Positions 44,250 through 62,889 of a stretch of 64,000 bases of DNA are shown piece by piece. Numbering within the stretch: the stretch's first letter is position 1; each line of letters opens with the position of its first letter. Under the pieces are notes generated by a model. The model did not search any database and was not told the DNA's origin. It worked only from the letters and a program-made list of their open reading frames with translations. The translations under genes were made by a program, and so were the position numbers. Source of the DNA: an uncultured Hyphomicrobiales bacterium (lineage in GTDB: Bacteria; Pseudomonadota; Alphaproteobacteria; Rhizobiales; Xanthobacteraceae); contig CAIRGJ010000036.1 of assembly GCA_903878085.1 (NCBI GenBank), forward strand, positions 62,001 to 126,000, given 5' to 3'.

Positions 44250-44278
44250 AACCTAAAAATTGCGGGCGGTTGAAGTGC

Positions 44279-44370
44279 CGGGCAAAGTTTGCCCGCGATG
44301 AGTAAAAAGCCCGCTCGGCGCCGTTGATCTGGCCGAGAAATGCAAACGCGGCGAGCTTTGGCTCGCCGCG
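44279..44370. repeat. Two palindromes at the nrdJ / defence-island junction
   Basis: CGGGCAAA-G-TTTGCCCG (44279-44295) and CGCGGCGAGC-TTTG-GCTCGCCGCG (44347-44370, perfect 10-bp stem with a 4-nt loop). Neither has a U-tract, so they are weak intrinsic terminators at best. They occupy the 188 bp between nrdJ and qatA and mark the change from core to accessory sequence. Confidence 0.6.
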
Positions 44371-44437
44371 TAATGGCTCAACGAACGAATCGTGAATCAA
44401 CTCTGAGACGTAAAATTTCGTAAACACGAGTGTGCCC

Positions 44438-46309
44438 ATGTGGCCCGATAACGAGACCGAGCGTGATTTCCTGAACTTCTCGGGTGTCGCCGATACCGTA
44501 GCGGAAATCATCGTTCAGGCGCGAGGACGGCCGATTTCAATCGGGGTGTCGGGAGCCTGGGGCATCGGCAAGTCGTCGATGATCAAACTCACGCGAGCCG
44601 CAGTCGCGGCGCGCGAGAGCAAAGACGGTGCCAGCAAGTACGTCTTCGTCGAATTCAACGCCTGGCTCTACCAGGGCTATGACGACGCGCGCGCGGCGCT
44701 CATGGACGTCATTGCGGACAAGCTTGAGCAGGAGGCCCAGAGCCGCCAGACCGCACTCGACAAGGTCAAATCGCTGGCCAAGCGGATCAAGTGGCTACGG
44801 GCCGCGAGGCTCGCCGCGACCTCCACCGCCTCGATATACTTCGGCATCCCTCCGGTTGGCGCCGCCGGCGAACTCTTCGATCTCGGCAAGAAAGTCTGGA
44901 CCGAGGGCGTCGGAAAGGACACCGCTGACGCGGCCAAGAAGGCAGCAGCGGACGTCGCTGCGGAGGGCAGCGGGCTCCTGAAGCCAAAGGAGGACACATC
45001 TCCGCCGAAGGAGATCCAGGCCCTGCGGGATGCCTTCGAGCAGACCCTTGAGGAGCTTGGGATTACGCTCGTCGTTCTGATCGACGATCTGGACCGGTGC
45101 CTGCCCGAGACGACAATCTCGACGCTGGAAGCGATCCGGCTGTTCCTCTTCCTAAAGAACACCGCCTTCGTCATCGCAGCCGACAACGACATGATCAAAC
45201 ACGCCGTGCGGAAGCATTTCGTCGGCGTAAACGACGATTTGCTTATAACCAACTACTTCGACAAGCTCATCCAGGTGCCAATCCGGGTGCCGCAGCTGGG
45301 CACTCAGGAAGTCCGAGCCTACATCATGCTGCTGTTCGTGGAGAACAGCGGGCTTTCCGAGGGTGACAAGGAAAAAATCCGCGCGTCTGTGATCGATCAA
45401 CTCAAGCGGACGTGGCAAGGCAAAAAGGTCGACCGCGCTTTCGTTCAGTCGCTAGGCGTGACGCTGCCCGAACAACTCATAGGGCAGTTCGACACCGCCG
45501 AACGCCTCTCATCGCTCATGACGACCGCGTCGGGAATCCTGGGCAATCCGCGTCTCATCAAGCGATTCCTCAACGCGCTATCGATCCGCATGACGATTTC
45601 GAAGGCGCAGGGCGTCGGCGTCGATGAAGCCGTACTCGCCAAGCTGCTGCTGTTTGAGCGCATCGGCGACGCTGCCGCATACGCCGAACTGGTCAAGAAC
45701 GTCAGCATCGACAGCGAAGGCAAGCCAACGTTCCTTAAGGAGTGGGAGGAGGATGCCATCGCCGGCCGCGATTTAGATCTGAAAGGACCGTGGACAGGCG
45801 ATTTCGTCAAGGAGTGGCTGGCGCTGTCTCCGCCACTGAATGACACCGACCTTCGTGGAGCGCTTTATGTCAGCCGCGAGCATGCGCCGTTGATCACGCC
45901 GGAGGATCGGCTGTCGTCCGAAGCGGCTGAACTCCTCGCAGCTATGCTTGAACATCCGGAGGTGGCATCTCGCCTGAAGGAGCGGCTCGTGCGCGTGCCG
46001 CGCATCGAAACAACCGTAATGATGGACCGGTTGCTGGAACGCGCCAGGAAAGAGCAGGAATGGGGTGCGCCGCCGATACTCAACGCGTGTATAGCCCTCG
46101 CAGACGCCGATCCGGTCCAAGGACCACGGTTGGCGGCATTTCTAGCGAGCCGGCCACCGCAGCAGATTCAGCCCAGCATCGTACCGAAGATCAGCGACCG
46201 ACCATGGGCGGGCTCCGTTCTCGACGCGTGGAATTCGTCGACTGAGATTTCTAGGCCGGTCAAGAACGCGATCAAGAGGACGAGGGAAAATGGGCACGTC
46301 GCAGTCTAG
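44438..46309 (+). CDS. qatA: QatA: KAP family P-loop NTPase of the Qat anti-phage system
   Basis: The ATPase of the four-gene Qat (QatABCD) phage-defence system. The 623-residue product has Walker A GAWGIGKS at 39-46, a KAP-type insert with a hydrophobic pair near 125-150 (ATSTASIYFGIPPVGAAGELF), and Walker B VVLIDDLDR (D216/D217). The N-terminus WPDNETERDFLNFSGVADT is typical of QatA. KAP NTPases often associate with membranes, and this one may sense infection or drive the effector. A GTG at 44432 is an alternative start. The end overlaps qatB by 20 bp. Confidence 0.92.
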   Translation: MWPDNETERDFLNFSGVADTVAEIIVQARGRPISIGVSGAWGIGKSSMIKLTRAAVAARESKDGASKYVFVEFNAWLYQGYDDARAALMDVIADKLEQEAQSRQTALDKVKSLAKRIKWLRAARLAATSTASIYFGIPPVGAAGELFDLGKKVWTEGVGKDTADAAKKAAADVAAEGSGLLKPKEDTSPPKEIQALRDAFEQTLEELGITLVVLIDDLDRCLPETTISTLEAIRLFLFLKNTAFVIAADNDMIKHAVRKHFVGVNDDLLITNYFDKLIQVPIRVPQLGTQEVRAYIMLLFVENSGLSEGDKEKIRASVIDQLKRTWQGKKVDRAFVQSLGVTLPEQLIGQFDTAERLSSLMTTASGILGNPRLIKRFLNALSIRMTISKAQGVGVDEAVLAKLLLFERIGDAAAYAELVKNVSIDSEGKPTFLKEWEEDAIAGRDLDLKGPWTGDFVKEWLALSPPLNDTDLRGALYVSREHAPLITPEDRLSSEAAELLAAMLEHPEVASRLKERLVRVPRIETTVMMDRLLERARKEQEWGAPPILNACIALADADPVQGPRLAAFLASRPPQQIQPSIVPKISDRPWAGSVLDAWNSSTEISRPVKNAIKRTRENGHVAV

Positions 46310-47159
46310 CGATGGACCGGGCCCCGGCGTGCCGATGGTGCCGCCATGGACGCCTGCCGCGCCTCAAGATCCTGCACCCCAGCCTCCGGCCGGCGAAGCT
46401 CCGGACGACACGACTGACGACGGGGCTCAGCCCGGCGTTCCTACAGCACCTCTTGCGGCCCCACCGCCCGTGCTTCCGCCCTCACCGATCGCCCCCGAAA
46501 AGCGGTTCGGTGGCGTTCGCACGAGTCTCGGAAACTTCGCCCGGTCCGGGGACAACCACGATCTCAAGCGTGGACTCGGGCACTACGTCCGCAACGGCTA
46601 TGGAGGCTCGAACACCGCCACGAGGCGGTTCGGCGGGACCGCTCAGACCGCTGGCACGCTCGGGCACGCGTTCTCTTCCACCGCAAGCGGCGCCGCGGAT
46701 GCCCCGATCGACACGGCATCTCTCGCCGGGCGATCCACAGAGGAGATCGCGACCGCAATCATCGAAGCCGTTAGACCGGTTGATGGTACTCAGGACGCGG
46801 AAGCCGAACGTGCCGCGATCCATGACGCGATGTCCGATCTGCTCGGCGAATTCCCGGACGCCGATCTGCTCAATCTGTCGGACGAGCAAAGGGACTTCGT
46901 CATCGAACGGTTCACCGCAATCGACGTTGCACGGCGCTTCGAGCTGGATGTCGGCAAACACCTGCTCGAAAAGGCAGCGACGGCTACGGTAGCGATGGCG
47001 CGGCTGAAGCAGATGCGTTCCTACATTAAGGAGACAGTGGCCGCCTCATTCCGCAAATTGAGGGATCAGGGAAGAACACTCTCACCAGGTCGTATCGCAC
47101 GCGTCGTGCAAGCCGCGCTGCGCGAGACGTTCGAGGTCTTCGAAGGATACGAAGAATGA
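46290..47159 (+). CDS. qatB: QatB of the Qat anti-phage system
   Basis: A 289-residue protein specific to Qat loci. It starts MGTSQSSDGPGPGVPMVPPW, the conserved Gly-second N-terminus of the family, then a long Pro/Ala-rich region (to about 70), a Gly-rich, Arg-rich stretch (GHYVRNGYGGSNTATRRFGGT), and a helical C-terminal half (about 150-289). From memory, recent work on QueC-like defence enzymes reports attachment of a deazaguanine to the N-terminal glycine of such partners; this N-terminus fits, but modification here is an inference. It overlaps qatA by 20 bp and qatC by 4 bp (ATGA). Confidence 0.88.
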   Translation: MGTSQSSDGPGPGVPMVPPWTPAAPQDPAPQPPAGEAPDDTTDDGAQPGVPTAPLAAPPPVLPPSPIAPEKRFGGVRTSLGNFARSGDNHDLKRGLGHYVRNGYGGSNTATRRFGGTAQTAGTLGHAFSSTASGAADAPIDTASLAGRSTEEIATAIIEAVRPVDGTQDAEAERAAIHDAMSDLLGEFPDADLLNLSDEQRDFVIERFTAIDVARRFELDVGKHLLEKAATATVAMARLKQMRSYIKETVAASFRKLRDQGRTLSPGRIARVVQAALRETFEVFEGYEE

Positions 47160-48430
47160 GATTGCTGTGTGCGCCGGCCGAAGTCGGCCGCATGAACGAG
47201 CAAGATACCCTTAGGGTCGTCCTGTACGGACAGGCTGGCGCCGACGACCGCGCGAGCGCGGGAGCCGCGCTTCGTAACGATATCCGCAGGGCCCGTCTCG
47301 GTCCGACGCGCCGAGCCTGGGACCTCATTTCGATCGCTATGTCGGCTATGGCGGCGGATGCGGCCGGCTCGCGGAGTCAGAGCCCCGACGGCTGGACTCG
47401 TGAGTTCGAAATGGAGATTGCAGTCGCCGAGCCGACGTTCTGGAACGGGGCGGCCGCCCCACTTGCGGATGCGCTGGCGTTTCTCACGACCGACCGTTGG
47501 CGATTCCGCTTCATCGCTGGCGGCGCCGCCCCAACCCCGCCGGCGGAGGCCTTCAGACCTCCCGAAAGCTCGGTTGTGTTGCTATCCGGCGGTCTCGACA
47601 GCCTGAGCGGAGCGATCGATCTCGCCGCACAAGGCAACCGGCCGGTTGCCGTCAGCAAGACGGTTCGGGGTGATGCAGCCAAGCAGATCGACTTCGCATC
47701 AAGGATCGGCGGCGGGCTAAGGCACTTCCAGTTGAACGACAACGCAAGCGTCCCAGGTCCCGAAGACACATCACAGAGGGCGCGCTCGATCATTTTTTTG
47801 GCCTTCGGCATTCTAATCGCAACGTCGCTTAAGCCGTATCGTACCGGTGGGGATTTGCCGCTGTACGTGTGTGAAAATGGTTTCATCGCCGTCAACCCTC
47901 CGCTCACGGGCAGCCGCATCGGCAGTCTCAGCACGCGAACAGCACACCCTTATTTCCTGCGGCTTTTCCAGGATGTTCTCGACGCCGCGAAGATCGGTGT
48001 GCAGATCCGCACCCCTTACGCCATCAAGACGAAGGGAGAGATGCTCAAGGAGTGCGCCGATCAGAAGCTGCTGACTGAGCTGGCTGCGACCTCGACAAGT
48101 TGCGGACGCTTTCAACGGTTCAACTATCGCCATTGCGGACGCTGCGTGCCCTGCCAAGTCAGAAGGGCGGCCTTCCTCGCGTGGGGAAAAGGCGATCCGA
48201 CCGAGTATGTCTTCGAACCCCTCGGACGCGACGATCATGATCATGCCGGCTTCGACGACGTGCGTTCGGTCGGCATGGCTTTGGCGGCAGTGAAGGGGGG
48301 AAGTTTCGATGAATGGCTCGGGAGCGCCTTGTCCTGGCCGCGGCTCGACCAACGTGACGAGTTGAAAGATATGCTGCGCCGAGGGTTAGCCGAGCTCGGC
48401 GCGCTGCACGTCAAACACGGTGTCAAGTGA
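47156..48430 (+). CDS. qatC: QatC: QueC-like PP-loop enzyme of the Qat system
   Basis: A 424-residue homologue of 7-cyano-7-deazaguanine synthase QueC with an extra N-terminal domain (about 1-135). The PP-loop SGGLDS is at 144-149 for ATP-dependent activation, and the zinc cluster is C316, C327, C330, C333 (TSCGRF and CGRCVPC). In QueC this chemistry turns a carboxy-deazaguanine into amide and nitrile; in Qat it is thought to act in defence and not in tRNA modification. No other queuosine genes are present nearby, supporting a stand-alone defence role. Start and stop overlap qatB and qatD by 4 bp, so translation is coupled. Confidence 0.93.
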   Translation: MRLLCAPAEVGRMNEQDTLRVVLYGQAGADDRASAGAALRNDIRRARLGPTRRAWDLISIAMSAMAADAAGSRSQSPDGWTREFEMEIAVAEPTFWNGAAAPLADALAFLTTDRWRFRFIAGGAAPTPPAEAFRPPESSVVLLSGGLDSLSGAIDLAAQGNRPVAVSKTVRGDAAKQIDFASRIGGGLRHFQLNDNASVPGPEDTSQRARSIIFLAFGILIATSLKPYRTGGDLPLYVCENGFIAVNPPLTGSRIGSLSTRTAHPYFLRLFQDVLDAAKIGVQIRTPYAIKTKGEMLKECADQKLLTELAATSTSCGRFQRFNYRHCGRCVPCQVRRAAFLAWGKGDPTEYVFEPLGRDDHDHAGFDDVRSVGMALAAVKGGSFDEWLGSALSWPRLDQRDELKDMLRRGLAELGALHVKHGVK

Positions 48431-49188
48431 TCGATCTCCACGCCCATCTCGATTTGTATCCGGACCCAATCGCTACGACGAAGGAATGCGTTGAGCGCAA
48501 CCTATTCGTCCTGTCTGTAACGACAACGCCTTCAGCCTGGTCGGGTACAGCCGCTCTCGCGAAGGACGCCCCCCGCATCCGGACAGCCATCGGTCTGCAT
48601 CCGCAAATCGCGCAGGAACGCCACGGAGAACTCGCGCTCTTTGATGAGCTACTTCCGCAGTCGCGGTACGTTGGAGAGATCGGTCTCGACGGCGGTTCCG
48701 AGCTCAAGAATACATGGGAAGTTCAGCGAAGGGTGTTCGACGAGATCCTGAGAATGTGCGGCGCCGCCGGCGGTCGCATTCTGACGATCCACAGTCGACG
48801 CGCCGCCACACCGGTACTCGAATGTCTCGCCTCCAGGGAGGACGCCGGCGTGGCCGTTCTCCACTGGTTCTCGGGATCGCAACGCGAACTTCAACGCGCG
48901 ATCGATCAGGGCTGCTGGTTCAGCGTGGGACCGGCGATGCTCGCCAGCGAGAAAGGCCGCGCGATGGCAGCGGCGATGCCGCCCGACCGGATCCTTACGG
49001 AGTCGGACGGACCGTTTGCCCAGGTCGACGGCCGTTCTCTTGTTCCATGGGATACCGCGATCGCCGAAAGAGCGCTCGCGGAGATTTGGGGTGTTACTGC
49101 GGCGGAAGCGCAGCAGCGGCTGCTAGGGAATCTCAGACGATTGGTGAGCCTTGCCGCTCCAAGTCCGCGGTCCTCAAACGATCTGTGA
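48427..49188 (+). CDS. qatD: QatD: TatD-like metal-dependent DNase of the Qat system
   Basis: A 253-residue TIM-barrel hydrolase of the TatD family. It starts with GTG overlapping the qatC stop (GTGA). Metal ligands are the HxH at H5/H7 (LHAHLDL), the Glu in VGEIGLDGG, the His in LTIHSRR and the Asp in LTESDGPF, so the site is complete. It is the presumed nuclease effector or processing enzyme of Qat. The family usually has about 250-260 residues, so it is full length. The gene ends 32 bp from the stop of convergent brxL with no strong hairpin between. Confidence 0.92.
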   Translation: MIDLHAHLDLYPDPIATTKECVERNLFVLSVTTTPSAWSGTAALAKDAPRIRTAIGLHPQIAQERHGELALFDELLPQSRYVGEIGLDGGSELKNTWEVQRRVFDEILRMCGAAGGRILTIHSRRAATPVLECLASREDAGVAVLHWFSGSQRELQRAIDQGCWFSVGPAMLASEKGRAMAAAMPPDRILTESDGPFAQVDGRSLVPWDTAIAERALAEIWGVTAAEAQQRLLGNLRRLVSLAAPSPRSSNDL

Positions 49189-49220
49189 CGCTGAAGCGGC
49201 AATAACCGATCGGCATCCGC

Positions 49221-51269
49221 TTAACTCACGCCGAGAGCCTTAAATACTGCATCCCCAGCGTCCGCATAGAATCCGGTCTGGAATTTCGCAAACAGCTCTC
49301 CTGGGATCGTCGGAATGTCCTTCACGCTGGCCATGGGCAGCAGGATGCGCTTGGCACCGGCGTCGAACGCCACTTGCAGAGATTCAGCCAAGTTCTCTAC
49401 GGGAACGATGTTCCCACCCAGGCTCATGTTACCAAGGATGACCATCTGTTGCTGGATCGGCTTGGCCAGCGCTCCAGAACAGAGGGCGACAAATGTCGCC
49501 AGCGTCATCGCCGTGGTCGCCCCAGTATTGTGGAGTTCGACGACATGGAGGTGATAGTCGTGATCACCGGCCTTAATCGACGCACTCACGCGGTGGACGT
49601 TCGCCTTGAAGTAATCAAAGCCGACCTTGATCGCTTCTCGGGCACCTGAGTTGGATCCAAGCCCTGAGGTCTTCAAGGCGCCGTTTCCAGCCGTAACTTG
49701 CGTTTCCAGACGGTAGAGACCGAGGTGGCCGCCGGATCCCGTCGCGACGGTGTGCATGACGCCAGGATTCAACGGACCGTCCGGAATGAGCGAGCCGCCG
49801 CCCTGCTCCGGTACGCTGATGAATTTCTCTTCCAGAGTCTCGACGTCGATGTAGGAGAAGTGGACGTCGAAAAACTCCATGCCGCCGATCTTTTTCAATT
49901 GCTCCTTCACGCGCCGGCGGCACTCAAGTGCATACTCCAGGCACCGCCTGACGGCCTCCTTGTCATACTGCTCATTCGGATAGAGCAGCTTCAGGAGGCC
50001 GGAGACGGTGTGCTTCACCGCGATCGTATCGCGCTGGTTCAGGTCCCGGCCCAGCTTGAAATACTTATTGATCGCATCGCCGAAGTTTCGCTTCCGCATC
50101 TCCCGGAGCCATTCGGCCAAATAGTCAACAATTAGGCCGTACTGATTGGTGAAGAACTCCGGCCGCATCTTCGGGATTTCCCAGCCTGGAACGTAGGCAT
50201 GAAACCGGTCGAAGAACGCCGAGTCGATCATGACATCCGGAAACGGAGCAAACAGGTGGCTCGTCTTGACCAGAGTGTCGACCGACTGGTTGATGTTACC
50301 GACGAAGACCATTGAGGCATACGCGTTGACCGAATCACGGCCGCGGGCGAACGACCCCGACGCCATGTAGTCCTTCATGATCTGCACGCCGTCCTTGTCT
50401 TTGAACGAGATGCCGGCAACTTCGTCGAACGCAACTACGTCCCACAACCCGACAAGGCCGACCTGGTGCCTGGCCATGTTGTAGAAAAGGTTGGCGACAG
50501 TGGTCTGGCCACCCGAGATAAGAATGCTGTTCGGACTGATTTCCTTGTAGATGTGGCTCTTACCCGTACCGCGTGGGCCAAGCTCCGCGAGGTTGTAGTT
50601 GTTTTCGACCAGCGGGATCATGCGGGCCAGGAGGTGCCATTTCACACGCTCCTTAAAATTGGTCGGCTCCATACCGGTGGACCGCAGCAGGACGTCGATC
50701 CATTGCCCCTCGTTAAATTCACCCCGGGCATGGAAGAGCTCGTCCATATCCATGTTCGGCATCTGGATCGGCTTCAGGTCCCCAAGTAGAAACGGAGTTC
50801 CTTTTTGGTCTTCCTCGAAGAAGTATTCCAGCGTGACGATGCACCAGATGCCGCCGACCAGAAGCTTCTCGAACTTCTTCACGATCGAACTTGGGACGAC
50901 GATCTTGCTGACCCCGAGGTTACCCAGGACCGCTTCGTAGACATCGCGCTTTTCGTTAAGCGTGACCGTGACTTTGTCGATCACCTTGAGGCTGCCGCGC
51001 TCACGGATCGTCGACTTCACCTTTTCGGCTTCGTCCGGCCTCACATAGTTTTCGGTGAGGATCTTTTTGACCGTCCGGAGACCCTCGGCGATCACGACTT
51101 CGTCGTTCGACGCGCAATAGCTGCCGAGGAGATATTCCAGCACGTAAACCGGGACGTTGGCGCCTTCCTTGACCAGCTTGGTCAAGTCCTTGCGAACGAC
51201 CTTGCCGGGAAAATGCCGGTTCAGCAGGTCATCCAATCCGCTGTCGAGTACCTGGCTTTCAGAAGTCAT
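49221..51269 (-). CDS. brxL: BrxL: AAA+ / Lon-like protein of type I BREX
   Basis: Last gene of the BREX operon, 682 residues. An N-terminal domain is followed by an AAA+ ATPase with Walker A GPRGTGKS at 231-238 and the BrxL signature ILISGGQTTVANLFYNMARHQ, then a C-terminal Lon-like domain (about 540-682, ending FKALGVS). In the Lon alignment the catalytic Ser position reads GATTA and the Lys position (GGLKEK in Lon) reads ENLAES, so the Ser-Lys dyad appears absent. The ATG at 51269 was chosen (the frame opens with TTG at 51287); it overlaps pglZ by 11 bp. Confidence 0.95.
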   Translation of the reverse strand: MTSESQVLDSGLDDLLNRHFPGKVVRKDLTKLVKEGANVPVYVLEYLLGSYCASNDEVVIAEGLRTVKKILTENYVRPDEAEKVKSTIRERGSLKVIDKVTVTLNEKRDVYEAVLGNLGVSKIVVPSSIVKKFEKLLVGGIWCIVTLEYFFEEDQKGTPFLLGDLKPIQMPNMDMDELFHARGEFNEGQWIDVLLRSTGMEPTNFKERVKWHLLARMIPLVENNYNLAELGPRGTGKSHIYKEISPNSILISGGQTTVANLFYNMARHQVGLVGLWDVVAFDEVAGISFKDKDGVQIMKDYMASGSFARGRDSVNAYASMVFVGNINQSVDTLVKTSHLFAPFPDVMIDSAFFDRFHAYVPGWEIPKMRPEFFTNQYGLIVDYLAEWLREMRKRNFGDAINKYFKLGRDLNQRDTIAVKHTVSGLLKLLYPNEQYDKEAVRRCLEYALECRRRVKEQLKKIGGMEFFDVHFSYIDVETLEEKFISVPEQGGGSLIPDGPLNPGVMHTVATGSGGHLGLYRLETQVTAGNGALKTSGLGSNSGAREAIKVGFDYFKANVHRVSASIKAGDHDYHLHVVELHNTGATTAMTLATFVALCSGALAKPIQQQMVILGNMSLGGNIVPVENLAESLQVAFDAGAKRILLPMASVKDIPTIPGELFAKFQTGFYADAGDAVFKALGVS

Positions 51270-53877: not shown

Positions 53878-56800
53878 TCGTCGTCTTTCCCGCCAGTGAC
53901 CGCTTTCACTTCGGCCAGAAGGTCCCCGAATTTGCTGTAATTGACCTTCACACCGTCACCGAGATTCAAGCTGATCTTCTGATCCGAAAAATGCTTCAGC
54001 TTCTCATCGAAGATGAGTAATTCGGTCTGCTTCTTTTTAAGATCGTCTTGCTCTTTCTGCAATTTCTTGCGCTGGCTAGTGCTGGACGCTTTTCCTTTGT
54101 CGGCTTCGATCTGTTCGATCCTGCTGCCGACCTGGCCTTGTAGTGGAATCACATACTCTGTCCGCATGCGCGCCAGGGTACCTTCGTTGTAGCGATGAAG
54201 GTATACAAGGCACTGAAAAGCCCGCTGTTTGCCGCTGCAAAAAAGCCAATAAATAGGACGTTTCTTATATGCAGCGAGGTGATGTTTGTAGAAGCCACCA
54301 GCGAGATATTTGCGTATCGCGGCGATCGGTGACTCGCCATTATTGGTTCCAAGTCCGTCGGCAATAAACTTCACGTTCTCCTGCAAAGACTCTGGAGAGA
54401 ACGTGCAATTGATGAAATCGGCCAAACGATCCGTTGCGTCGTCAATCATTCCCCAATCGGTATCCAGCAATGGAACGATGCCATCGCTATCGGCTTCAAA
54501 CTTTGTGTAGGCAGCGCTGTCGAACCCGTCGTTTCCATTAGAAGCGTAAACTAGGCCGGGCCTGTCCAGACTGAAGCGCCCCATTACACATCCCATGAAA
54601 TAGGACATGAATTCGCGCACCGTGTCGCTTCGCATGCGATCTTCCCGATCAACCTCAGAAAGATCGTCGTCGTATCGGTAAAACGGATTGTTATTTATCG
54701 TTATCTGGTTGAGGGGGACGTCCGGCAGCAAATCATTGGCTAGGCCGTAAATATCGATAAACAACCGGTTATTAGACTCCTCTAATTTTTGCATCTCCAC
54801 GGTACGAGCACGCCACTCGGCGCGCATACAATTATAGGCATCGACAATAGACCTGGCCCCATTGACCAGCGGTGAAGATGCAAATCCCCAGGAAGTTTCG
54901 AACAAATCCCAATCTGCAGAAGATATCTCTAGTAGATCTTTCGCGTTCGTGATCGCGGTCTGGTTCTTGAAATTTGGTGACAGAGGTAGCTTCTTGAACT
55001 CGCCAATCCCATAGTGCATTGATGGACTTAACAAGGACAAAAAATACGTTCCGACCGTTGAATTAGCGAAAGCCAGCAACGACATCGGATCTTCGTTATC
55101 ATTAAAGGCAGCCATCGTTATGCTCGTGAACGCAAACCCTTCGGAATGCAGTCGAGCGGAAAACGAAGACGTAGAAATGTCTGACCAATTTATTCCTGGC
55201 TTAAAGAACAGGTCGGTGCTGATGATATATCGTGACCAGTGATCACCGGTTCGTTCGGTAATGGCGGACTTAGGTGCGTCGCCATTATCTTTCCAATTTA
55301 CGACAGCCTCTTTGTTGCTTGACCACTTTCGATATGGGCCGCCGTTAAGACAAGGATACCAAGTCTTATCGGATGTATCTGAGGGACCTTTTGCGGAGAA
55401 CTCAATATCGTCTGCCGGAACTTCAAACCATTGACGAAGGAATTTCGCGTTATCGCCAATCGCCATTCCCTTTTTTACAACATATGTTTCAGCGACGCCG
55501 TCATACTCAAACGCTTTCAGCGCCTCGGGGATGGCCCAATAAACGATTGGACTCCCGCCAATTCCTTTGAACGTCTCCTCAGAGGCATAGAAACGAAGGC
55601 GGCAATCCAACTGAGCAATCGCCTGACGGAAAGACTCCTTTTTTTGAGCCTCTGAAATTCCATCTATAAGCCGCAGGTAGTTGCCGTTGAAATTTGGAAT
55701 GCGACACTTTTTCAAAACAAAAGCTGTCGTTGAAACGACTTCACCACTGATGCTGTCGAATGCGCGCGAGCCCAGATGGGCCATGCTAGAAATTGTGTTG
55801 TTCTTCAGCAATTTTGCGCGCAATCCCTCATAGGATGAAATGAACATCCAGCTTTGCATCGTGATCATCGCTACGGTCCCGTGGTCCGCTGCGAAAGCGA
55901 GATTCCGCTCGATGAACATCGCAAAGAGATCGGCCTTACTATCTGGATACTCCCTGCTTGCGTATGACTTAAGGCTGGCGTTCATGCCTTTCGCGCCCAT
56001 GTACGGCGGGTTCGCAACAACACAGTCGTACTTGCCGCTCAGTATTCGAGCTTGGCGCACCAACCGTTCAAGTTGGTCCCGAGCTTCTATTTGAAGATTG
56101 CGTCGTAGCAGGTCTCTGCTGATTGGTTTAGCGATTGCCGTGTCGAGCAACGGCAAGATACTTAAGATGCTTGCGGGTACGTTGATCAGAGATCCGATCG
56201 TTCCCGCGTCAACGAACAAATTAACGATCGCAGAAATCGCCTTCCGAACCGGCCCCCCATAATCATGGCTACTTAGAGTGGGCTCAGGAATGGTTTCTGG
56301 GATCAAATCGTCGCTTGGAACAAGATCATAGCGCCCTTCCTCGAACAGCAGCGCGTCCGCCAACTTAGCGGAATCCAGGGAGGAACTGTCATCGAAACAA
56401 AGGACATTGAGTAACGGCGGATCTGCCAAAATTGTTCGATCGTCAGCGCGAGCCTTCATCAATAATGAGAAGCCAGACAATTGCGCAGCTCGATTATCAA
56501 TATCGAGTCCAAAAAGATTTTTCGTGAGAATGCTTCGTACAGCCTCCTTTTTCGTGTACCCGCACTCCAAATACATTGCGAGGAAAAGGTCATACGCCTC
56601 TGCAACGATGTGACCAGAACCCACAGCCGGGTCTAAGAAAGTTATGGTATCCGGCTTGAGATCTGTTGGTCTCGCCTCCATCAGGGCCAGAACATCTCCC
56701 GTTTGAACCGCAGGCGGCAAATAGTAGTCCATGAGGCTGCGGAGCGAACTGGTTGGGCGGCTCGCGAGCCATTGTGCTCCAACGCTGTTTTGAACTAAAT

Positions 56801-57539
56801 ATTTAACGATCCAGTTTGGCGTAAAAAGCTGAGTGGCTGCGGGAATGTCGGCGCTGGCAACGACCTTGCCGATGACCTCGTCCTTCTTCTCCGAGATGTA
56901 GAACTGGTACAGCCAGCCGATAACCTCGACCTCTCTCCAGTCGTCTTCGTCGATTCCGTCGATTAGCTTTCGGATGAGGGAGTCTGAGTGAAGCAGGTTG
57001 TCCGGGAGCAGCAGTTCAGTTTCGTCGTCGATGCGCTCGAACAGGAACGGCATCGCCTTGTGCAGCGCATTGCATTGGGCGGTGAGCAGAAGGCGATAAA
57101 GCTCGCTTTCCCTGTTTCCTTCCAGCTTCAGGTCGATCGCCATGTCCTTCTTTAGGCCAGGCAAGTCGACGTGTTCGGCATGCTCAAGGATTTCCGGGGT
57201 CTGCTTGCCCTCTGGATGGCTCAAAACCCGGTAGCCGTGGTCCAAGTATTCGTGGAGCTCCATAAAGCGGATCGCAACCAAGCGGTTGAACCATGTGTAG
57301 GCCAGCGCCTCCATGGTCTTTTCGAACCCATCCCTTTCGACGCGCGCCTCAAGCTTTTTACGTTTGTCGGCAACCGCGCGAGGATGATCACGCCCCGCGA
57401 TTACGGCTACATCCCCACGGACAACTGCCGGTTCGATTTTCGAAGCAGTCAGTCCGTAAAATGCGGCGCGGTCCGTCATCGCCTGGATGAAATCGCGGCG
57501 AGCCTCCGGAGCGTAAGTCTTGAGCTTATTGCGGTTCAT
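53874..57539 (-). CDS. pglX: PglX (BrxX): adenine-specific DNA methyltransferase of type I BREX
   Basis: A 1221-residue methyltransferase that marks host DNA at a non-palindromic site so that BREX can tell self from phage. The N-terminus NRNKLKTYAPEARRDFIQ is typical. SAM motif I is DPAVGSGH at 303-310 (Val where Cys is more common) and the catalytic motif IV is NPPY at 510-513 (ANPPYMGAKG). The C-terminal part, with target recognition and then a coiled coil (LQKEQDDLKKKQTELL), is more AT-rich than the neighbouring genes. The start could also be the GTG at 57548, which overlaps the last base of brxC. Confidence 0.96.
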   Translation of the reverse strand: MNRNKLKTYAPEARRDFIQAMTDRAAFYGLTASKIEPAVVRGDVAVIAGRDHPRAVADKRKKLEARVERDGFEKTMEALAYTWFNRLVAIRFMELHEYLDHGYRVLSHPEGKQTPEILEHAEHVDLPGLKKDMAIDLKLEGNRESELYRLLLTAQCNALHKAMPFLFERIDDETELLLPDNLLHSDSLIRKLIDGIDEDDWREVEVIGWLYQFYISEKKDEVIGKVVASADIPAATQLFTPNWIVKYLVQNSVGAQWLASRPTSSLRSLMDYYLPPAVQTGDVLALMEARPTDLKPDTITFLDPAVGSGHIVAEAYDLFLAMYLECGYTKKEAVRSILTKNLFGLDIDNRAAQLSGFSLLMKARADDRTILADPPLLNVLCFDDSSSLDSAKLADALLFEEGRYDLVPSDDLIPETIPEPTLSSHDYGGPVRKAISAIVNLFVDAGTIGSLINVPASILSILPLLDTAIAKPISRDLLRRNLQIEARDQLERLVRQARILSGKYDCVVANPPYMGAKGMNASLKSYASREYPDSKADLFAMFIERNLAFAADHGTVAMITMQSWMFISSYEGLRAKLLKNNTISSMAHLGSRAFDSISGEVVSTTAFVLKKCRIPNFNGNYLRLIDGISEAQKKESFRQAIAQLDCRLRFYASEETFKGIGGSPIVYWAIPEALKAFEYDGVAETYVVKKGMAIGDNAKFLRQWFEVPADDIEFSAKGPSDTSDKTWYPCLNGGPYRKWSSNKEAVVNWKDNGDAPKSAITERTGDHWSRYIISTDLFFKPGINWSDISTSSFSARLHSEGFAFTSITMAAFNDNEDPMSLLAFANSTVGTYFLSLLSPSMHYGIGEFKKLPLSPNFKNQTAITNAKDLLEISSADWDLFETSWGFASSPLVNGARSIVDAYNCMRAEWRARTVEMQKLEESNNRLFIDIYGLANDLLPDVPLNQITINNNPFYRYDDDLSEVDREDRMRSDTVREFMSYFMGCVMGRFSLDRPGLVYASNGNDGFDSAAYTKFEADSDGIVPLLDTDWGMIDDATDRLADFINCTFSPESLQENVKFIADGLGTNNGESPIAAIRKYLAGGFYKHHLAAYKKRPIYWLFCSGKQRAFQCLVYLHRYNEGTLARMRTEYVIPLQGQVGSRIEQIEADKGKASSTSQRKKLQKEQDDLKKKQTELLIFDEKLKHFSDQKISLNLGDGVKVNYSKFGDLLAEVKAVTGGKDDE

Positions 57540-57547
57540 GCTGGCCA

Positions 57548-60500
57548 CTACCGAATCTGAATGCGTTCGTTCTTGGCCAAAGCGTCTTCGAGTTCATCCC
57601 GAAGAGCGCCGAGAAACCGGTTCACGTCGTCTTTCGTCTCCAGGTATGTGACCTCGACCAGATCAGCTGGTTTGACGATCCTCTGTTTTTTCACCTTGGG
57701 AGGCGCTACAGGCGGGCCGCCCGGCCCCCCCGGCGGAACCACTGCGGGAGCCTTGCGGAGGAACTCCTCAATCCGCCCCTGGGCAAGGTCGAACTCCTTG
57801 ACGGCCTCGCCTTCGGCCTGGGTGATGTGAGCCAGGCTTTCCTGCTTCTCAACTTGAGACCCGAGCAACTCAAGCGGCTTCAGGCACGTGGCTCGGAGAA
57901 CCACATCGGCATTGGCTGTGGCGAGATCGGTATTGAGCGTTTTGACGTAGCCGTCGATCTTGACGATTGCCTGGGCGCGTCGTTCGGCCAGCAATGACGA
58001 ATTGACCGCATCGACAACGCCGATCAGGGCATCGACCTCCTTGATAAGCTTGTACGGGCTCTTTGCCTCCAAAATTTCCCGCATCCGGATCAATGCGGGG
58101 CCGGCCTTTTCGTCCTTCCCCAGTTCCAGTCGGTTTAACTGGAACGCTGCATGCGACTTCCGTAGTCGTTCCCAGGCCGGCTTCTGATGATTGTAAAAGT
58201 GGTCGAGTTCGTGAAACTGCTCGCCGACTTCCAGGAGATCCGACTTCAGTCCGTTGAATCGTTCGACGAATTTTCGGCTGTCGGTATCGGCAAGCAATGG
58301 GCCTATCAGCGCCAGCGCATCACCAATCTCGCTGCCGCCGGGATAGTTTCCCGTATCGGCGAGCTGTCGGTAGCCACCGAGCGCCACCTGCCATTCCCTG
58401 ATCTTCGCCTGCAGGTAGATGAACAAAGCGTCTTCGCCGTCCGGGCCCATTTCTGCGAACAGTTCTTTTCCAAGGCTGCGGGCGTCCTGGATGGACTTGG
58501 GATCAGCCGTCTCGCGCTTACGCACGACGATCTTGCGGCGCTTCGCCGGCGTCGTGATGGCGTCGTAGACCTTGTCAATCGGCAGCAACGAAGCGTCCAT
58601 CATCAGGTTGACCTCGCCCAACACAATGAGGCGGGCCAACAGCAGCAAAACCTCGTCCTCGGGCCAGCCGTACGGCCGAATCGAGTACCGCTTCTCCAGC
58701 ATGTCGTGCAGCACGACCTGCTGGCTCTTCATCGAGCTGAGATGCAGGTAGGTACGAAGATCCTCGATCGCCTCGGGATTGTTCTCGCCGGCCTGGAGGT
58801 GAGCTGTTTCCTTTGCGGTGTCGTTGCTACGCAGGATGGCCTGGAGCTCTTTCAGCGGCTCCGCCGAGAGGTTCTTCAGGTAGCTCATCTTGTTGAAGGT
58901 GTTTTGGACGAGGTACTCCAAGACTTCGCTCAAGGCTGCCGATGGCGTCGATGCCTTGATCTTCAACGGCTGACCAGCCACGAAATATTCGCCTGAGGCC
59001 AGCATCTCGCCGAGCAGAACGGTTAGCCGGTCCCGCCGGGCATTATTCTCCTCCGAGCAATCACGAAGGATTCGCTTGGTGGACTCGGACAGAGTGCCGT
59101 CGTTTTTCTTGAGGAGATATTTCTTGGTTTGCTGGTAGGTTTGAAGCTCTCTGCCCAGCCCCTCGTCGTTGCCAAGCCGGATAATGACGCAACCATCTTC
59201 CGCGGTGCTGTCGAGCAGTGCTTTCACCTTGTCGTAGAGATCATAGCCGTCCGCCATCGGCGTGATTACAGACACCGAAAGCGCCGAGTCCCTCGGATTG
59301 CCGACATAGGCGTGGTCGCAGCGGCGATTGAAGTCGAAATCCATCTTATTGGCGGAGAAACGGTGCTTGCGTTGTCCCTTCAAGACGTCTTCGAAAATGA
59401 TCTCACCGAGCAGCTTCGCCTGCTCACCGCTCGACAGGTCGACGTTCTTAATTTCCTTGTTGATGTCGCGCTCTTCGTTGGTCAGGAAGGTGTAGACGTC
59501 CCCGTTCCTGCTGATGAGCGTTTGCTTCTCCAGGCGCCCTAGGCTCTCCTCGATGTGCCGCCGCAGCGCGATGCGGTCGCCGTCCATTTGGTCGAGGCAG
59601 AGCGTGACCAGATTGTCGACGTTGCCCTTCATTTCCTCCACATAACGGATGAGGAACAGAACCTGGAGCAACTTGATGTCGGTCGGCTGAAGGCTCGGAT
59701 TGGAGCCGGCCTGGTCGATCGTCTTCTTCACAACGGTGTCGAGGAAGCTCTCGATAGACGGGTAGAAATCGTAGAGCGGCACCAGGATGCCGACTTCCTT
59801 CTGTGAGGCTGTCTTTGCTGCGGACTGGAAGGCGTCCAGCATCGAACGCTCGCCTCGCGCCAGGTGTAAGCCAGTGGCGCCGGCCTTCCGGATGGATTCA
59901 AAGATCTTCTGGATCAACTGGAACTGGTACGGAGCAAACGGGTAGTTCTTGACGAAGTCGACGCTGTCCCTGAAGGGACGGAACGTCATCCCGCAATCCT
60001 TGAAGGTAAGCTGGTTCTTGAGGATGTCGCCCTTGGCGATAAATTCGCCTTCGAGACCGGCCTTCACTTCCGGAAGCTTTGCCAACAGCCTGGACTGAAT
60101 GACCTCGTCGACGTTAGCGCTGGAAAGCGACAGCGGCGGGAAAAACCGGCCCTGGATCTTCGAAAAATCTTGCTTCTTGGCCCGGCTCATGTCGCCGAGT
60201 ACGGCGTCCATGTCTTCCTGCGACGTCACGACCACCCAAGCCCGGCGCCGGCAAACCGTGCCCAACTCCTCCGTGATGGTCTGGAGGTTGAGCATCAGAT
60301 GGGAGTCGGTGCCGATGAACTGGCCAACCTCGTCCACCAGGAAGACGATACGCTGAAGCGGGCCCTTCGAATCCAGGTACTCCTTGACCCACTTGCAGAA
60401 GTTTTCGACCGAGATCGAGAAGTTGTTCTCCGCGCCTTCGATCCAGCGGACACTGGTCGCCTCACTCTGTCCCAGCGTTTCGCAGAGCGCCTTGACGACC

Positions 60501-61147
60501 TCGTCCTGGTTGAATTCGTAGGCGTCTCGTTCGGCGAGCCAGTCGTTGCCGGTATGCTTCTTGTAGGCATCCTGGAAGGCCGCAAATTTTCCCTTCCCGT
60601 CGAGATACCGCTCCATGTGGGCAATGTGCGGGTGATCGCCGCTGTACCCCTGGAGTTCGTTGAGAACCTTGAGAAAGACCCGCAGGATCAGGTCGCGGCC
60701 GGTCTCGTTGCCGTGGGCCGCCTTGCTGTCGATGTTGAAGAGAATGACGTCGGTGTTTCCGGTGACCACCGCCCGCTTGATGTCGGCATAGAGAACCGCA
60801 TCCTTGACCTTGCTGGAGAAGAAATCGACCGCCTGCTTGCTCTCACCGTTGTGCGTGTGAACCCGGTTCCGGAGCAGATAGGACAGCACCTTCAGGAAGT
60901 GGGATTTGCCGGAGCCGAAGAACCCGGAAATCCACACGCCCATCTTGCCGCCAGGATCGGACGCTTTGCCCTGATCGACGGACTCAAGATACCAGGAGAT
61001 GAACTTGCTGAAATGCAGGTCCAATTCCTGAGTGATGACGAATTCGTCGAGCTCCTGCCATACGGACGAGTCGTCAAGCTGGTCCGCTTTCACGACACCG
61101 TTGATTGGCCGGAAGATATCTCGTTCAAAGAGGTTCTTGATAAGCAT
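57548..61147 (-). CDS. brxC: BrxC: large P-loop ATPase of type I BREX
   Basis: A 1199-residue DUF499/AAA-type protein, the scaffold of the BREX complex. It begins LIKNLFERDIFRPINGVVKAD. Walker A is GFFGSGKS at 75-82, followed by typical BrxC blocks (VVTGNTDVILFNIDSKA; RIVFLVDEVGQFIG, Walker B). The C-terminal region has a Pro/Gly-rich hinge (PAVVPPGGPGGPPVAPP) and a charged end (DELEDALAKNERIQIR). It starts 12 bp after brxB and ends where pglX begins. Confidence 0.96.
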   Translation of the reverse strand: MLIKNLFERDIFRPINGVVKADQLDDSSVWQELDEFVITQELDLHFSKFISWYLESVDQGKASDPGGKMGVWISGFFGSGKSHFLKVLSYLLRNRVHTHNGESKQAVDFFSSKVKDAVLYADIKRAVVTGNTDVILFNIDSKAAHGNETGRDLILRVFLKVLNELQGYSGDHPHIAHMERYLDGKGKFAAFQDAYKKHTGNDWLAERDAYEFNQDEVVKALCETLGQSEATSVRWIEGAENNFSISVENFCKWVKEYLDSKGPLQRIVFLVDEVGQFIGTDSHLMLNLQTITEELGTVCRRRAWVVVTSQEDMDAVLGDMSRAKKQDFSKIQGRFFPPLSLSSANVDEVIQSRLLAKLPEVKAGLEGEFIAKGDILKNQLTFKDCGMTFRPFRDSVDFVKNYPFAPYQFQLIQKIFESIRKAGATGLHLARGERSMLDAFQSAAKTASQKEVGILVPLYDFYPSIESFLDTVVKKTIDQAGSNPSLQPTDIKLLQVLFLIRYVEEMKGNVDNLVTLCLDQMDGDRIALRRHIEESLGRLEKQTLISRNGDVYTFLTNEERDINKEIKNVDLSSGEQAKLLGEIIFEDVLKGQRKHRFSANKMDFDFNRRCDHAYVGNPRDSALSVSVITPMADGYDLYDKVKALLDSTAEDGCVIIRLGNDEGLGRELQTYQQTKKYLLKKNDGTLSESTKRILRDCSEENNARRDRLTVLLGEMLASGEYFVAGQPLKIKASTPSAALSEVLEYLVQNTFNKMSYLKNLSAEPLKELQAILRSNDTAKETAHLQAGENNPEAIEDLRTYLHLSSMKSQQVVLHDMLEKRYSIRPYGWPEDEVLLLLARLIVLGEVNLMMDASLLPIDKVYDAITTPAKRRKIVVRKRETADPKSIQDARSLGKELFAEMGPDGEDALFIYLQAKIREWQVALGGYRQLADTGNYPGGSEIGDALALIGPLLADTDSRKFVERFNGLKSDLLEVGEQFHELDHFYNHQKPAWERLRKSHAAFQLNRLELGKDEKAGPALIRMREILEAKSPYKLIKEVDALIGVVDAVNSSLLAERRAQAIVKIDGYVKTLNTDLATANADVVLRATCLKPLELLGSQVEKQESLAHITQAEGEAVKEFDLAQGRIEEFLRKAPAVVPPGGPGGPPVAPPKVKKQRIVKPADLVEVTYLETKDDVNRFLGALRDELEDALAKNERIQIR

Positions 61148-61159
61148 GACAGCCTCGAC

Positions 61160-61735
61160 CTACGGGACCAGCTTGAACGCGCGGTAATAGTTGTTGCTCT
61201 TCAGTTTGCCGAACAGACGCAAGGACTGCCCGTCGTAGCGTCCCGGGTAAAATAGGAGCAGCGGCGTATTGCCCATGATGGGCTGCAGATTGTTCAGCAA
61301 CGAATGGGTGCGAAGCAGCGGCCAGACCAGGCCGGCTCCAGACGCGATGATCAGATCGTGTTCTGCCGGCTGGGCGGCTTCCGCGAACGGCATGCTCAAC
61401 TTCGATTCGTGCAGCGGTCCGGACAGGGCCTTCTTCAGCGCCTGGTCCCCCTTCGCCCGCTGAAGTTCGATGGCCTTATCGAGCAGGTTCCGGCCGCGAA
61501 GGTGATCCAGCATGAAATCGAACAGATCGATGTGCTTCGCGCGCATTCCGTGACGCTGCGTCGGGATGTGGAGGAGCAGCGTCCGGAGGAAGTCGCGGAC
61601 GCGGAGCTCATCTTCCGGGGGATAGTCGAAGATGTAGAAGGCGATCTCGTTGCCGATGCCCGAGCCACTGAGGAATTCGTCCGAGACGATCCTTGGCATG
61701 ATCTTGTTCAATCGTTCGCTGAGAGGCCCACTCAT
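61160..61735 (-). CDS. brxB: BrxB (DUF1788) of type I BREX
   Basis: A 191-residue BREX protein of the DUF1788 family. It starts MSGPLSERLNKIMPRIVSDEFL and has the conserved block IAFYIFDYPPEDELRVRDFLRTLL, then GLVWPLLRTHSLLNNLQPIMGNTPLLLFYPG, and ends with the conserved YYRAFKLVP. Its role in the complex is structural or unknown. The ATG at 61735 overlaps the brxA stop by 4 bp (ATGA); the frame is open to 61789, but that extension lies inside brxA and has no ribosome-binding site. Confidence 0.93.
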   Translation of the reverse strand: MSGPLSERLNKIMPRIVSDEFLSGSGIGNEIAFYIFDYPPEDELRVRDFLRTLLLHIPTQRHGMRAKHIDLFDFMLDHLRGRNLLDKAIELQRAKGDQALKKALSGPLHESKLSMPFAEAAQPAEHDLIIASGAGLVWPLLRTHSLLNNLQPIMGNTPLLLFYPGRYDGQSLRLFGKLKSNNYYRAFKLVP

Positions 61736-62343
61736 GGCGCGACCTGCAAGCAGCGGAGAACGTAATCCTCGCGATTGGCCTTGAGGCATTGAACGACCTG
61801 GTCCGCGATATGGACGGTCTGAAGTTTGAGACTGCGGGTGTTTTCAATGTATCCGGCTTGCGCCAACATCTGGAAAACCGAGGATCGTATCCTTAGACGG
61901 GTTTCTTCTGTCCACGCCGGCATCAGCGGATCGCGTTCGCGGCAGCCATCCAGGTAGTCGGAGAACATATTGTTCGAAATCGTCTTGCCAAACCGCCGGT
62001 ACTGATCAGCGACGACCATGCCCAAAAAGTCGCCGAGTAAAGGACTTTGCTTGACGGCCGCCGCAAAGATCGCGTGCGTTGCCACCGAACCTTTTCCGTC
62101 GCGGACCAACTTCCACATATCCGGGCCCATCGTCTCAAGGCGAGATCTGATGAGCTTTGCGAGCCGCTGCGCGGTCGCCGGATTTCGCGTTTGAAGGATG
62201 TTGCGCTCTACGATCGCTTTGACCCAGCCTTCGGCATCAATCTTGTGAAGCAACAGGTCGGCGATGCGGCGGCTCTCGGTCACCTTCAAAGAGCCTGCTG
62301 TTATGTCGGCGCGATACCTAGGACCGACTTTCTGATTTGGCAT
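61732..62343 (-). CDS. brxA: BrxA (DUF1819) of type I BREX
   Basis: A 203-residue small BREX protein that binds DNA in characterised homologues. Conserved blocks: YRADITAGSLKVTESRRIADLLL at the N-terminus and WKLVRDGKGSVATHAIFAAAVKQSPLLGDFLG in the middle, with a winged-helix-like C-terminal part (RSSVFQMLAQAGYIENTRSLKL). The frame is open to an ATG at 62487, but the ATG at 62343 is preceded by AGAGGATGAA and gives the normal family length of about 200 residues. It is the first core BREX gene. Confidence 0.92.
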   Translation of the reverse strand: MPNQKVGPRYRADITAGSLKVTESRRIADLLLHKIDAEGWVKAIVERNILQTRNPATAQRLAKLIRSRLETMGPDMWKLVRDGKGSVATHAIFAAAVKQSPLLGDFLGMVVADQYRRFGKTISNNMFSDYLDGCRERDPLMPAWTEETRLRIRSSVFQMLAQAGYIENTRSLKLQTVHIADQVVQCLKANREDYVLRCLQVAP

Positions 62344-62487
62344 TTCATCCTCTGCCGCAGCGGCCCCAGTACCGAGCGTATAGCTAGGCGTTTCTTCGTC
62401 GATCAAACCCGATTGATCGGAAAGCGTCAGAGTCGCCGACAGGGCCGGGAATAGCCGTTCGTCGACGTTGTCGTAGATAGTCGGCAT
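62344..62487 (-). pseudogene. Short coding remnant in frame with brxA, similar to the N-terminus of PLD/helicase defence proteins
   Basis: In frame upstream of brxA, an ATG at 62487 opens 48 codons beginning MPTIYDNVDERLFPALSATL. From memory, this is very close to the start of phospholipase-D-domain SNF2-type helicases of defence islands, which begin like MPTIYDNIE and continue into RADFCVGYFNLRGW. Here the similarity stops after TLTLSD and an unrelated acidic stretch (EETPSYTLGTGAAAAEDE) runs into brxA. It may be a deletion scar of a lost helicase gene, or a longer BrxA N-terminus if translated. Confidence 0.4.
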
Positions 62488-62519
62488 CTGCGGCTTCGGC
62501 TCCCCTACCGAGATTCAAG

Positions 62520-62708
62520 TTATTTGGTCCGTTTCGTCTTCCGCCTCTTGAGCCATTCGGCGACTGCCACCTCGACGCATTCGTAGGCTTTCTTGTCCTC
62601 GGCGAGCGCTGCCATCTTCAGCTCCTTCAGGATCGTCGGATCCATGAAGGTGGTGAGTTGGCGCCGGCCGTCGTCGCGAGGTGGGGTCTTCTTTTCAGCC
62701 TTGGACAT
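62520..62708 (-). CDS. Ribbon-helix-helix-type small protein upstream of BREX
   Basis: A 62-residue basic protein. The central part, RQLTTFMDPTILKELKMAALAEDKKAYECVEVAVAEWL, has the beta-strand plus two-helix pattern of ribbon-helix-helix DNA-binding proteins (strand about 16-21, helices about 23-35 and 40-53). It ends in a Lys/Arg-rich tail. The ATG at 62708 has GGAGAAG at the right distance; the upstream open frame to 62750 is AT-rich leader. It is the promoter-proximal gene of the BREX run and a natural candidate for its transcriptional repressor. A palindrome lies about 95 bp upstream. Confidence 0.82.
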   Translation of the reverse strand: MSKAEKKTPPRDDGRRQLTTFMDPTILKELKMAALAEDKKAYECVEVAVAEWLKRRKTKRTK

Positions 62709-62800
62709 GGCTTCTCCAATATTTCTGACGGCTAACACTCTGCACCACAAATGGATTTTGCAAAGGCACCCCGGCTACCATCCACATTATTTTAGTCCTA

Positions 62801-62820
62801 AAAACATTCTAGAATATTTT
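62801..62820. promoter_or_regulatory. AT-rich palindrome, candidate BREX operator
   Basis: AAAACATTCTAGAATATTTT is symmetrical except at one base pair, with a perfect ATTCTAGAAT core (62806-62815). It lies in the most AT-rich stretch of the region, between the RHH gene and the divergent gene at 62890. A -10-like TAAAAT follows on the minus strand. It is a plausible site for the RHH protein. Confidence 0.45.
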
Positions 62821-62889
62821 TGTTGACTCGTTTAAGCGATAAGGACAGAGAAGAACAGAACAAGAACGTAGCTGTGAGTGATCTGCGTC

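Follow-up and report, generated by a model that had tools for sequence, protein, structure and literature searches.

The complete QatABCD and type I BREX anti-phage systems that lie together after nrdJ in the window analysed here, a 64,000-nucleotide stretch of a Xanthobacteraceae contig (CAIRGJ010000036.1, positions 62,001 to 126,000; G000:C36:62001-126000), are in our assessment carried as cargo by a single Tn7-like transposon, about 29.3 kb long, inserted after that gene, a reading of the sequence to which we give a probability of roughly 0.88. The tns genes, the matching inverted ends, a 5-bp duplication, and related elements after nrdJ elsewhere all point to a Tn7-like element, and the two systems would be neighbours because one vehicle carries them. 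The window stops at 64000, before the tns genes, so the reason for the adjacency is not visible from the window alone; the same contig extends 11,165 bp further (locus L002), to 75165, and everything beyond window position 64000 is given in a continued coordinate, the L002 position plus 58000. The features that define the element are:

40524-44249, + strand: nrdJ, B12-dependent ribonucleotide reductase (NF005736, 2296 bits)
44266-44270, + strand: GCGGT, the target duplication, repeated at 73571-73575 (L002:15571-15575), from flank comparison
44271-44302, + strand: end of the transposon nearest nrdJ, holding one TnsB-site-like repeat at 44277-44299, from inverted-repeat alignment
44346-44371 and 44383-44410, + strand: end cassette beside qatA, a hairpin and a 28-nt block respectively, common to the end regions of related elements
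66699-67412 (start chosen by us), + strand: tnsA-like gene, weak PDB profile match
67416-69596, + strand: tnsB, Mu-transpos_C at 1.2e-06 (Pfam)
69593-70639, + strand: tnsC/tniB, AAA+ ATPase, TniB at 1.7e-15 (Pfam)
to 72462, + strand: tniQ, TniQ at 2e-12 (Pfam)
72473-73411, + strand: DUF4238 gene, profile match

The element is bounded at 44271-73570 (29,300 bp) and starts 21 bp past the nrdJ stop. Its ends carry a 23-bp inverted repeat in which 44277-44299 pairs with 73542-73564 (L002:15542-15564), with a score of 25.4 where the best of 20 shuffles reached 22.2, and the GCGGT flank begins six bases outside both copies of that repeat. A further copy in matching orientation lies inside the element at 73454-73473; the proximal end has one clear TnsB-site-like repeat and the distal end two in matching orientation. 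A near-identical copy of the end cassette beside qatA adjoins the CBASS cargo of one relative (G645), with related versions in G597 and G494. When its 28-nt block was sought as a degenerate pattern with up to three mismatches, four of 25 genomes had it, one copy each: this one, G645, G597, and G749, where the copy sits beyond tniQ. The reversed pattern had no match in those 25 genomes.

Comparisons with the PDB used profiles, that is, alignments of relatives. The TnsB profile matches solved TnsB/TnsAB at 1.5e-52 and 3.5e-50, the TniQ profile matches TnsD at 0.0014, and the TnsA-like protein has conserved E, D, and K residues; TnsA is absent in some Tn7-like branches. None of the proteins profiled was recognised as TnsE, and no Cas effector was found among the element's own proteins sent to PADLOC, a CRISPR array search not having been made. 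In the mechanism that we envisage, TniQ would read the conserved 3' end of nrdJ, our candidate attachment site, as TnsD reads glmS for Tn7, and would recruit TnsC and TnsAB; insertion would occur in one orientation just past nrdJ and leave the gene intact, insertions could stack there, and Qat and BREX would act as separate defences.

Just outside the element, 73583-73626 holds two repeat copies in opposite orientation that resemble the start of a second element, and such oppositely pointing repeats right after the first suggest stacking of insertions. The interval 73583-74482 (L002:15583-16482) contains this second end-repeat set and then a metallo-beta-lactamase-fold gene, which matches 204 of the 270 positions of PDC-M48B, a candidate defence family, and runs into the IS3-type transposase with which the contig closes. 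A second element, stacked on the first and interrupted, may lie beyond the distal end.

Related elements after nrdJ and rival origins

Searches with TnsB gave 25 matches at E ≤ 1e-25 in 391 family genomes and two matches in 385 class genomes, this genome counted in both. We sought nrdJ in 22 TnsB genomes and found it in 21, 20 of them family members; G460, G504, and G656 (nrdJ not examined) and G580 (nrdJ without match) were left unclassed. Eleven other genomes have both genes on one contig, and in nine of these tnsB is downstream of nrdJ on the same strand, at 8.2 kb in G530, 8.6 kb in G645, 14.2 kb in G578, 15.7 kb in G613, 54 kb in G677, 68 kb in G600, 73 kb in G664, 75 kb in G616, and 89 kb in G749; G617 and G755, where TnsB is not downstream on the same strand as nrdJ, are the exceptions.

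The DNA after the nrdJ stop was read in 20 genomes and compared with post-tniQ DNA in 19 of them and here; G610, whose fetched stretch lacks tniQ, was left out of this end comparison. Exact 5-bp duplications at matching inverted ends are present in G578 (TCCAG), G645 (AAGGG), G494 (CCAGC), G597 (GCGAG), and G676 (GTCGC), all 15-35 bp past the nrdJ stop, and the ends there begin TG. Since the nrdJ and tns sides are on different contigs in G494, G597, and G676, the matching duplication in these three is a prediction that came true. In two more genomes, G677 and G600, the matching ends outscore shuffles but the scan gave no duplication (one exists in G600 at a different offset), and repeat arrays at p ≤ 0.05 occur within the first 110 bp in G530, G613, G616, G528, G769 (exactly 0.05), and G610. 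By at least one quantitative test, 13 of the 20 other family genomes have an element end after nrdJ; G664 and G749, linked by position and appearance, are rated likely (2/20), and G617, G609, G755, G662, and G690 (5/20) have no element after nrdJ. By eye, no end is evident past nrdJ in G379 (class level, 28% TnsB).

Linked genomes and controls were compared in three tests, with figures uncorrected for multiple testing. Duplications are found in 6 of 15 linked genomes (this one counted) versus none of five controls with the transposon elsewhere, an inverted repeat above 20 shuffles in 8 of 15 versus one of five unlinked, and a repeat array at p ≤ 0.05 in 10 of 16 versus one of 25 controls (5 unlinked plus 20 other nrdJ loci). 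On both the TniQ tree (22 rows, labels uncertain for G379, G664, and G749) and the TnsB tree (23 rows) the label 'at nrdJ' changes four times; label shuffles did as well in 21 and 18 of 500, respectively, and the label is clustered. Our guess is that nrdJ targeting is old and was lost several times. G609 and G617, neither of them at nrdJ, have near-identical TnsB (branches of 0.03), but their TniQ proteins differ (1.01 and 0.67). A change of TniQ along with the target would produce this contrast, which at most hints at TniQ retargeting.

Extension beyond the family stayed weak. In other families of the order, TniQ is found in 12 of 297 genomes (this one counted) and nrdJ in 10 of the other 11; no duplication was found among the eight genomes with tns-side DNA, and repeat arrays at p ≤ 0.05 occur in four of 10. 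In G880 the two genes share a strand, with TniQ 56 kb past nrdJ, and in G966 TniQ is upstream of nrdJ. A different arrangement is seen in G005, where the nrdJ 3' end is repeated about 0.5 kb downstream (L018:1180-1296, 39 codons aligned), and in G023, where it is repeated about 0.4 kb downstream (L012:686-775, 30 codons aligned), as if another kind of element also used the nrdJ site.

Several observations weigh against a Tn7-like transposon at this locus. The distal end starts TCT rather than TG, so that among the six duplication-bearing cases this one is the least clean; the duplication is set off from the aligned repeat by 6 bp, and with 23 offsets tried the chance of a 5/5 match is about 2% per alignment; the direct-repeat test on the element's own proximal end gave no signal (p 0.42); no near-identical empty site was found; and sequence to the right of the element is available to 75165 only. 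The TnsA-like protein has no Pfam match, and its four PDB matches, all to TnsA/TnsAB, are weak (E 0.08-0.49). As for the relatives, nine of the 15 linked genomes in the comparison gave no duplication, the control G617 is also above its shuffles in the inverted-repeat test, and a single nrdJ-targeting TniQ clade was rejected because the tree needs four label changes.

A small share of probability goes to an ordinary defence island, in which separate recombinations after nrdJ brought in the two systems and the Tn7-like module is a non-mobilising neighbour. Such an origin would suit the non-canonical distal end, the occurrence of Qat and BREX apart elsewhere, and the differing guanine-plus-cytosine (GC) content of the modules (qat 61-64%, brx 51-60%, tns 63-66%); it fits poorly with the position of both systems inside matching inverted ends with a target duplication, and with an end cassette beside qatA that is shared with G645, where the cargo differs. 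Delivery of the cargo by an integrase-type island at the nrdJ 3' end, as G005 and G023 with their downstream repeats of that end seemingly illustrate, is very improbable, given a single nrdJ C-terminal match on 44001-75165 and no site-specific integrase seen among the open reading frames (ORFs) profiled.

Qat and BREX, the probable cargo

A preliminary description of this DNA had named ten defence genes making up both systems, and these names and the completeness of the sets are borne out: all ten genes are open, and profiles assign each to its family (QatABCD 4/4, type I BREX 6/6). The block does follow directly on nrdJ, as described there, with the qatA start 182 bp past it. The genes, together with two features upstream of brxA, are:

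44432-46309 (alternative ATG 44438), + strand: qatA, KAP ATPase, profile matches
46290-47159, + strand: qatB, profile matches
47156-48430, + strand: qatC, QueC-like, profile matches
48427-49188, + strand: qatD, TatD-type DNase, profile matches
49221-51287, - strand: brxL, profile matches
51259-53877, - strand: pglZ, profile matches
53874-57548, - strand: pglX, methyltransferase, profile matches
57548-61147, - strand: brxC, profile matches
61160-61789, - strand: brxB, clear Pfam match
61732-62487, - strand: brxA, clear Pfam match
62520-62708, - strand: ORF of 62 amino acids, ribbon-helix-helix-like (sub-threshold, E 0.057), first gene before brxA
62800-62821, no strand: near-palindrome upstream of that ORF, from a sequence scan

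NCBIfam gave no match for BrxA and BrxB, whose Pfam matches are clear, and for PglX a type IIG restriction-methylase model is nearly as good (1388 versus 1410 bits). Walker A motifs are present in QatA, BrxL, and BrxC, SGGLDS in QatC, HAHLD in QatD, and NPPY in PglX; neither PglZ nor the protease serine of BrxL was picked up by simple motif patterns. The GC content of pglX is 51% versus 57-60% in the remaining brx genes, a lower value that fits separate exchange of the specificity gene. The near-palindrome at 62800-62821 is a possible operator. Relatives of the 62-residue ORF (44-53% over 45 amino acids) are found in G530, ahead of Shango genes, and in G749, and by eye a palindrome also precedes the G530 copy.

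The preliminary description was likewise right that the two systems are convergent, with 32 bp between the stop codons of qatD and brxL, and our scan lists no terminator-like site between these stops. That layout would suit a selected functional couple whose expression is linked by antisense read-through across the junction, an explanation that we hold to be very unlikely: the two systems are adjacent in only one of 391 family genomes, and the junction RNA is unremarkable, the 47-nt fold being no better than shuffles on the + strand (z -0.43) and slightly better on the - strand (z -1.54; 13 of 200 shuffles equally good). A special junction was rejected, there being neither a terminator-like site nor a remarkable fold, and so, with adjacency in this genome alone, was a conserved Qat-BREX couple. 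The earlier suggestions that Qat and BREX might move together and might be coupled by antisense RNA are not sustained, the former contradicted by the family count and the latter unsupported by the sequence tests run; convergent cargo operons within one transposon account for the layout.

Elsewhere the two systems occur separately. This genome counted, QatC is over the cut-off in 33 of the 391 family genomes (58 at E ≤ 1e-10) and BrxC in seven (eight at E ≤ 1e-10); both are over it here and in G609, on separate contigs there, and G768 has BrxC plus a sub-cut-off QatC, again on separate contigs. The fetched flanks of the four QatD relatives in the named genome collection (two Bradyrhizobium, one Bradyrhizobiaceae, and one Methylobacterium) had no BREX match. 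In G690, where the transposon is not at nrdJ, a Qat system 30-41% identical to this one adjoins the tns genes.

Cargo in the relatives is varied. We selected 30 proteins from nine other nrdJ-linked islands for a PADLOC scan (threshold 1e-8), and 15 of them matched, with defence genes in seven of the nine islands: a CBASS effector, cyclase, and E1-E2 in G645; DrmA and DrmB (DISARM-like) in G578; Shango SngABC in G530; IetS in G600; Druantia DruE2 and DruG2 in G616; HerA in G664; and a dGTPase with partial DpdJ and methylase matches in G749. For G616, G664, and G749 the proteins are those within 20 kb of nrdJ, the element borders being unmapped. The five proteins from G613 and the one from G677 had no PADLOC match. 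A defence hotspot after nrdJ, raised earlier as a possibility, is supported for genomes with this transposon family; the candidate attachment site most likely holds varied defence genes in this family, and in such genomes the post-nrdJ stretch is a promising place for defence genes, including unknown ones.

Companion genes and a leader RNA before tnsA

Between the BREX genes and tnsA the element carries three further features:

63525-64121 (L002 from 5525), + strand: ORF of 198 amino acids crossing the window end
64122-66140 (L002 to 8140), + strand: AAA+/M41 protease with Walker A and HEAAH motifs
66484-66679 (L002:8484-8679), + strand: leader RNA, about 195 nt, before tnsA, from an alignment of modules and a covariance model

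In the PDB comparison the AAA+/M41 protease profile has VCP-type ATPases as its first matches and aligns with FtsH across both domains. With this module included, 12 of 23 have the protease gene ahead of tnsA and on its strand, and nine of 23 have the 198-residue ORF ahead of tnsA; both are minimum counts since some fetched stretches are short. The protease may have a role either in transposition or in defence.

The leader RNA is found in nine of the 23 modules, at nrdJ and elsewhere (L002, L027, L028, L030, L031, L037, L039, L044, and L045). Eight aligned leaders fold better than the dinucleotide-shuffle mean (z -2.2 to -4.8; at most two of 100 shuffles as good). In the alignment, two-sided changes affect 12 pairs versus 5.3 ± 1.5 in shuffles, 88% of cells pair versus 31-43% when slid, and the covariation score is reached by none of 500 shuffles, a comparison favoured by the structure having been derived from the same alignment. 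A covariance model of the eight leaders recovered one untrained copy, before the G530 tnsA (E 6e-6), in 1.03 Mb; the next-ranking hits were one on the opposite strand of a trained copy (E 0.005) and three unlinked to tnsA (E 0.009-0.015), one of them at window 14618-14816. At that level the model finds no leader in the other 14 modules, and Rfam at gathering thresholds had no match in the five loci searched. A loose motif scan gave mostly noise, and the covariance model was used instead. From its place before tnsA we infer that the leader RNA may control the tns operon; together with the recurrent AAA+/M41 protease it suggests an added layer of Tn7-like transposition control.

ClpX dismantles the phage Mu transpososome after insertion. 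A wider proposal, which we offer as speculative and rather doubtful as a whole, is that these elements form a new Tn7-like alphaproteobacterial lineage in which TniQ reads the nrdJ end, the leader RNA controls the tns operon, the FtsH-like protease dismantles the transpososome after insertion, and stacked elements serve as an exchangeable phage-defence store.

Comparison with known systems

The QatABCD system resembles its known counterparts in having four genes, qatA to qatD, in order and each with a PADLOC family match (2e-145 for QatA), and differs in that QatA scores under the NCBIfam cut-off (452 versus 600 bits). Type I BREX consists of brxA, brxB, brxC, pglX, pglZ, and brxL, and the full six-gene set is present in this element; the difference is the small ribbon-helix-helix-like ORF that precedes brxA, and no BrxR-type regulator was recognised among the proteins profiled.

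Tn7-like elements with defence cargo are surveyed in PMC8649781, which reports BREX (BrxC) in 40 elements; the likeness is the defence cargo, BREX included, and the portion of that survey drawn on here mentions no nrdJ site, Qat, or FtsH-like genes. The Tn7-like sites named in the portions of PMC10293859, PMC8649781, and PMC11406308 drawn on are glmS, tRNA genes, parE, comM, guaC, yciA, ffs, and rsmJ, and the word 'ribonucleotide' is absent from the main texts of these three. Among the papers covered by full-text literature searches, none was found that names nrdJ as a Tn7 site, and no description of an AAA+/M41 gene beside tnsA or of a covarying leader before tnsA was found in the literature searched. 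With the Tn7-like reading, an unexplained defence pair becomes a testable mobile unit, and its candidate attachment site belongs to a gene that is conserved; the TniQ proteins at different sites bear on the retargeting of Tn7-like elements.

As outlined in PMC11406308 and PMC2918618, Tn7 uses TnsABC with TnsD at attTn7, downstream of glmS, where it inserts in one orientation with a 5-bp duplication. Measured against that outline, the element described here is alike in its TnsB, TnsC, and TniQ/TnsD genes, its 5-bp duplication, and its oriented insertion shortly after a conserved gene, and tentatively in its weakly matched TnsA-like gene and its candidate TnsB-site repeats at the ends; it differs in that the target gene is nrdJ, the cargo occupies the stretch from the nrdJ-proximal end to tnsA, and a protease gene and a leader RNA stand before tnsA.

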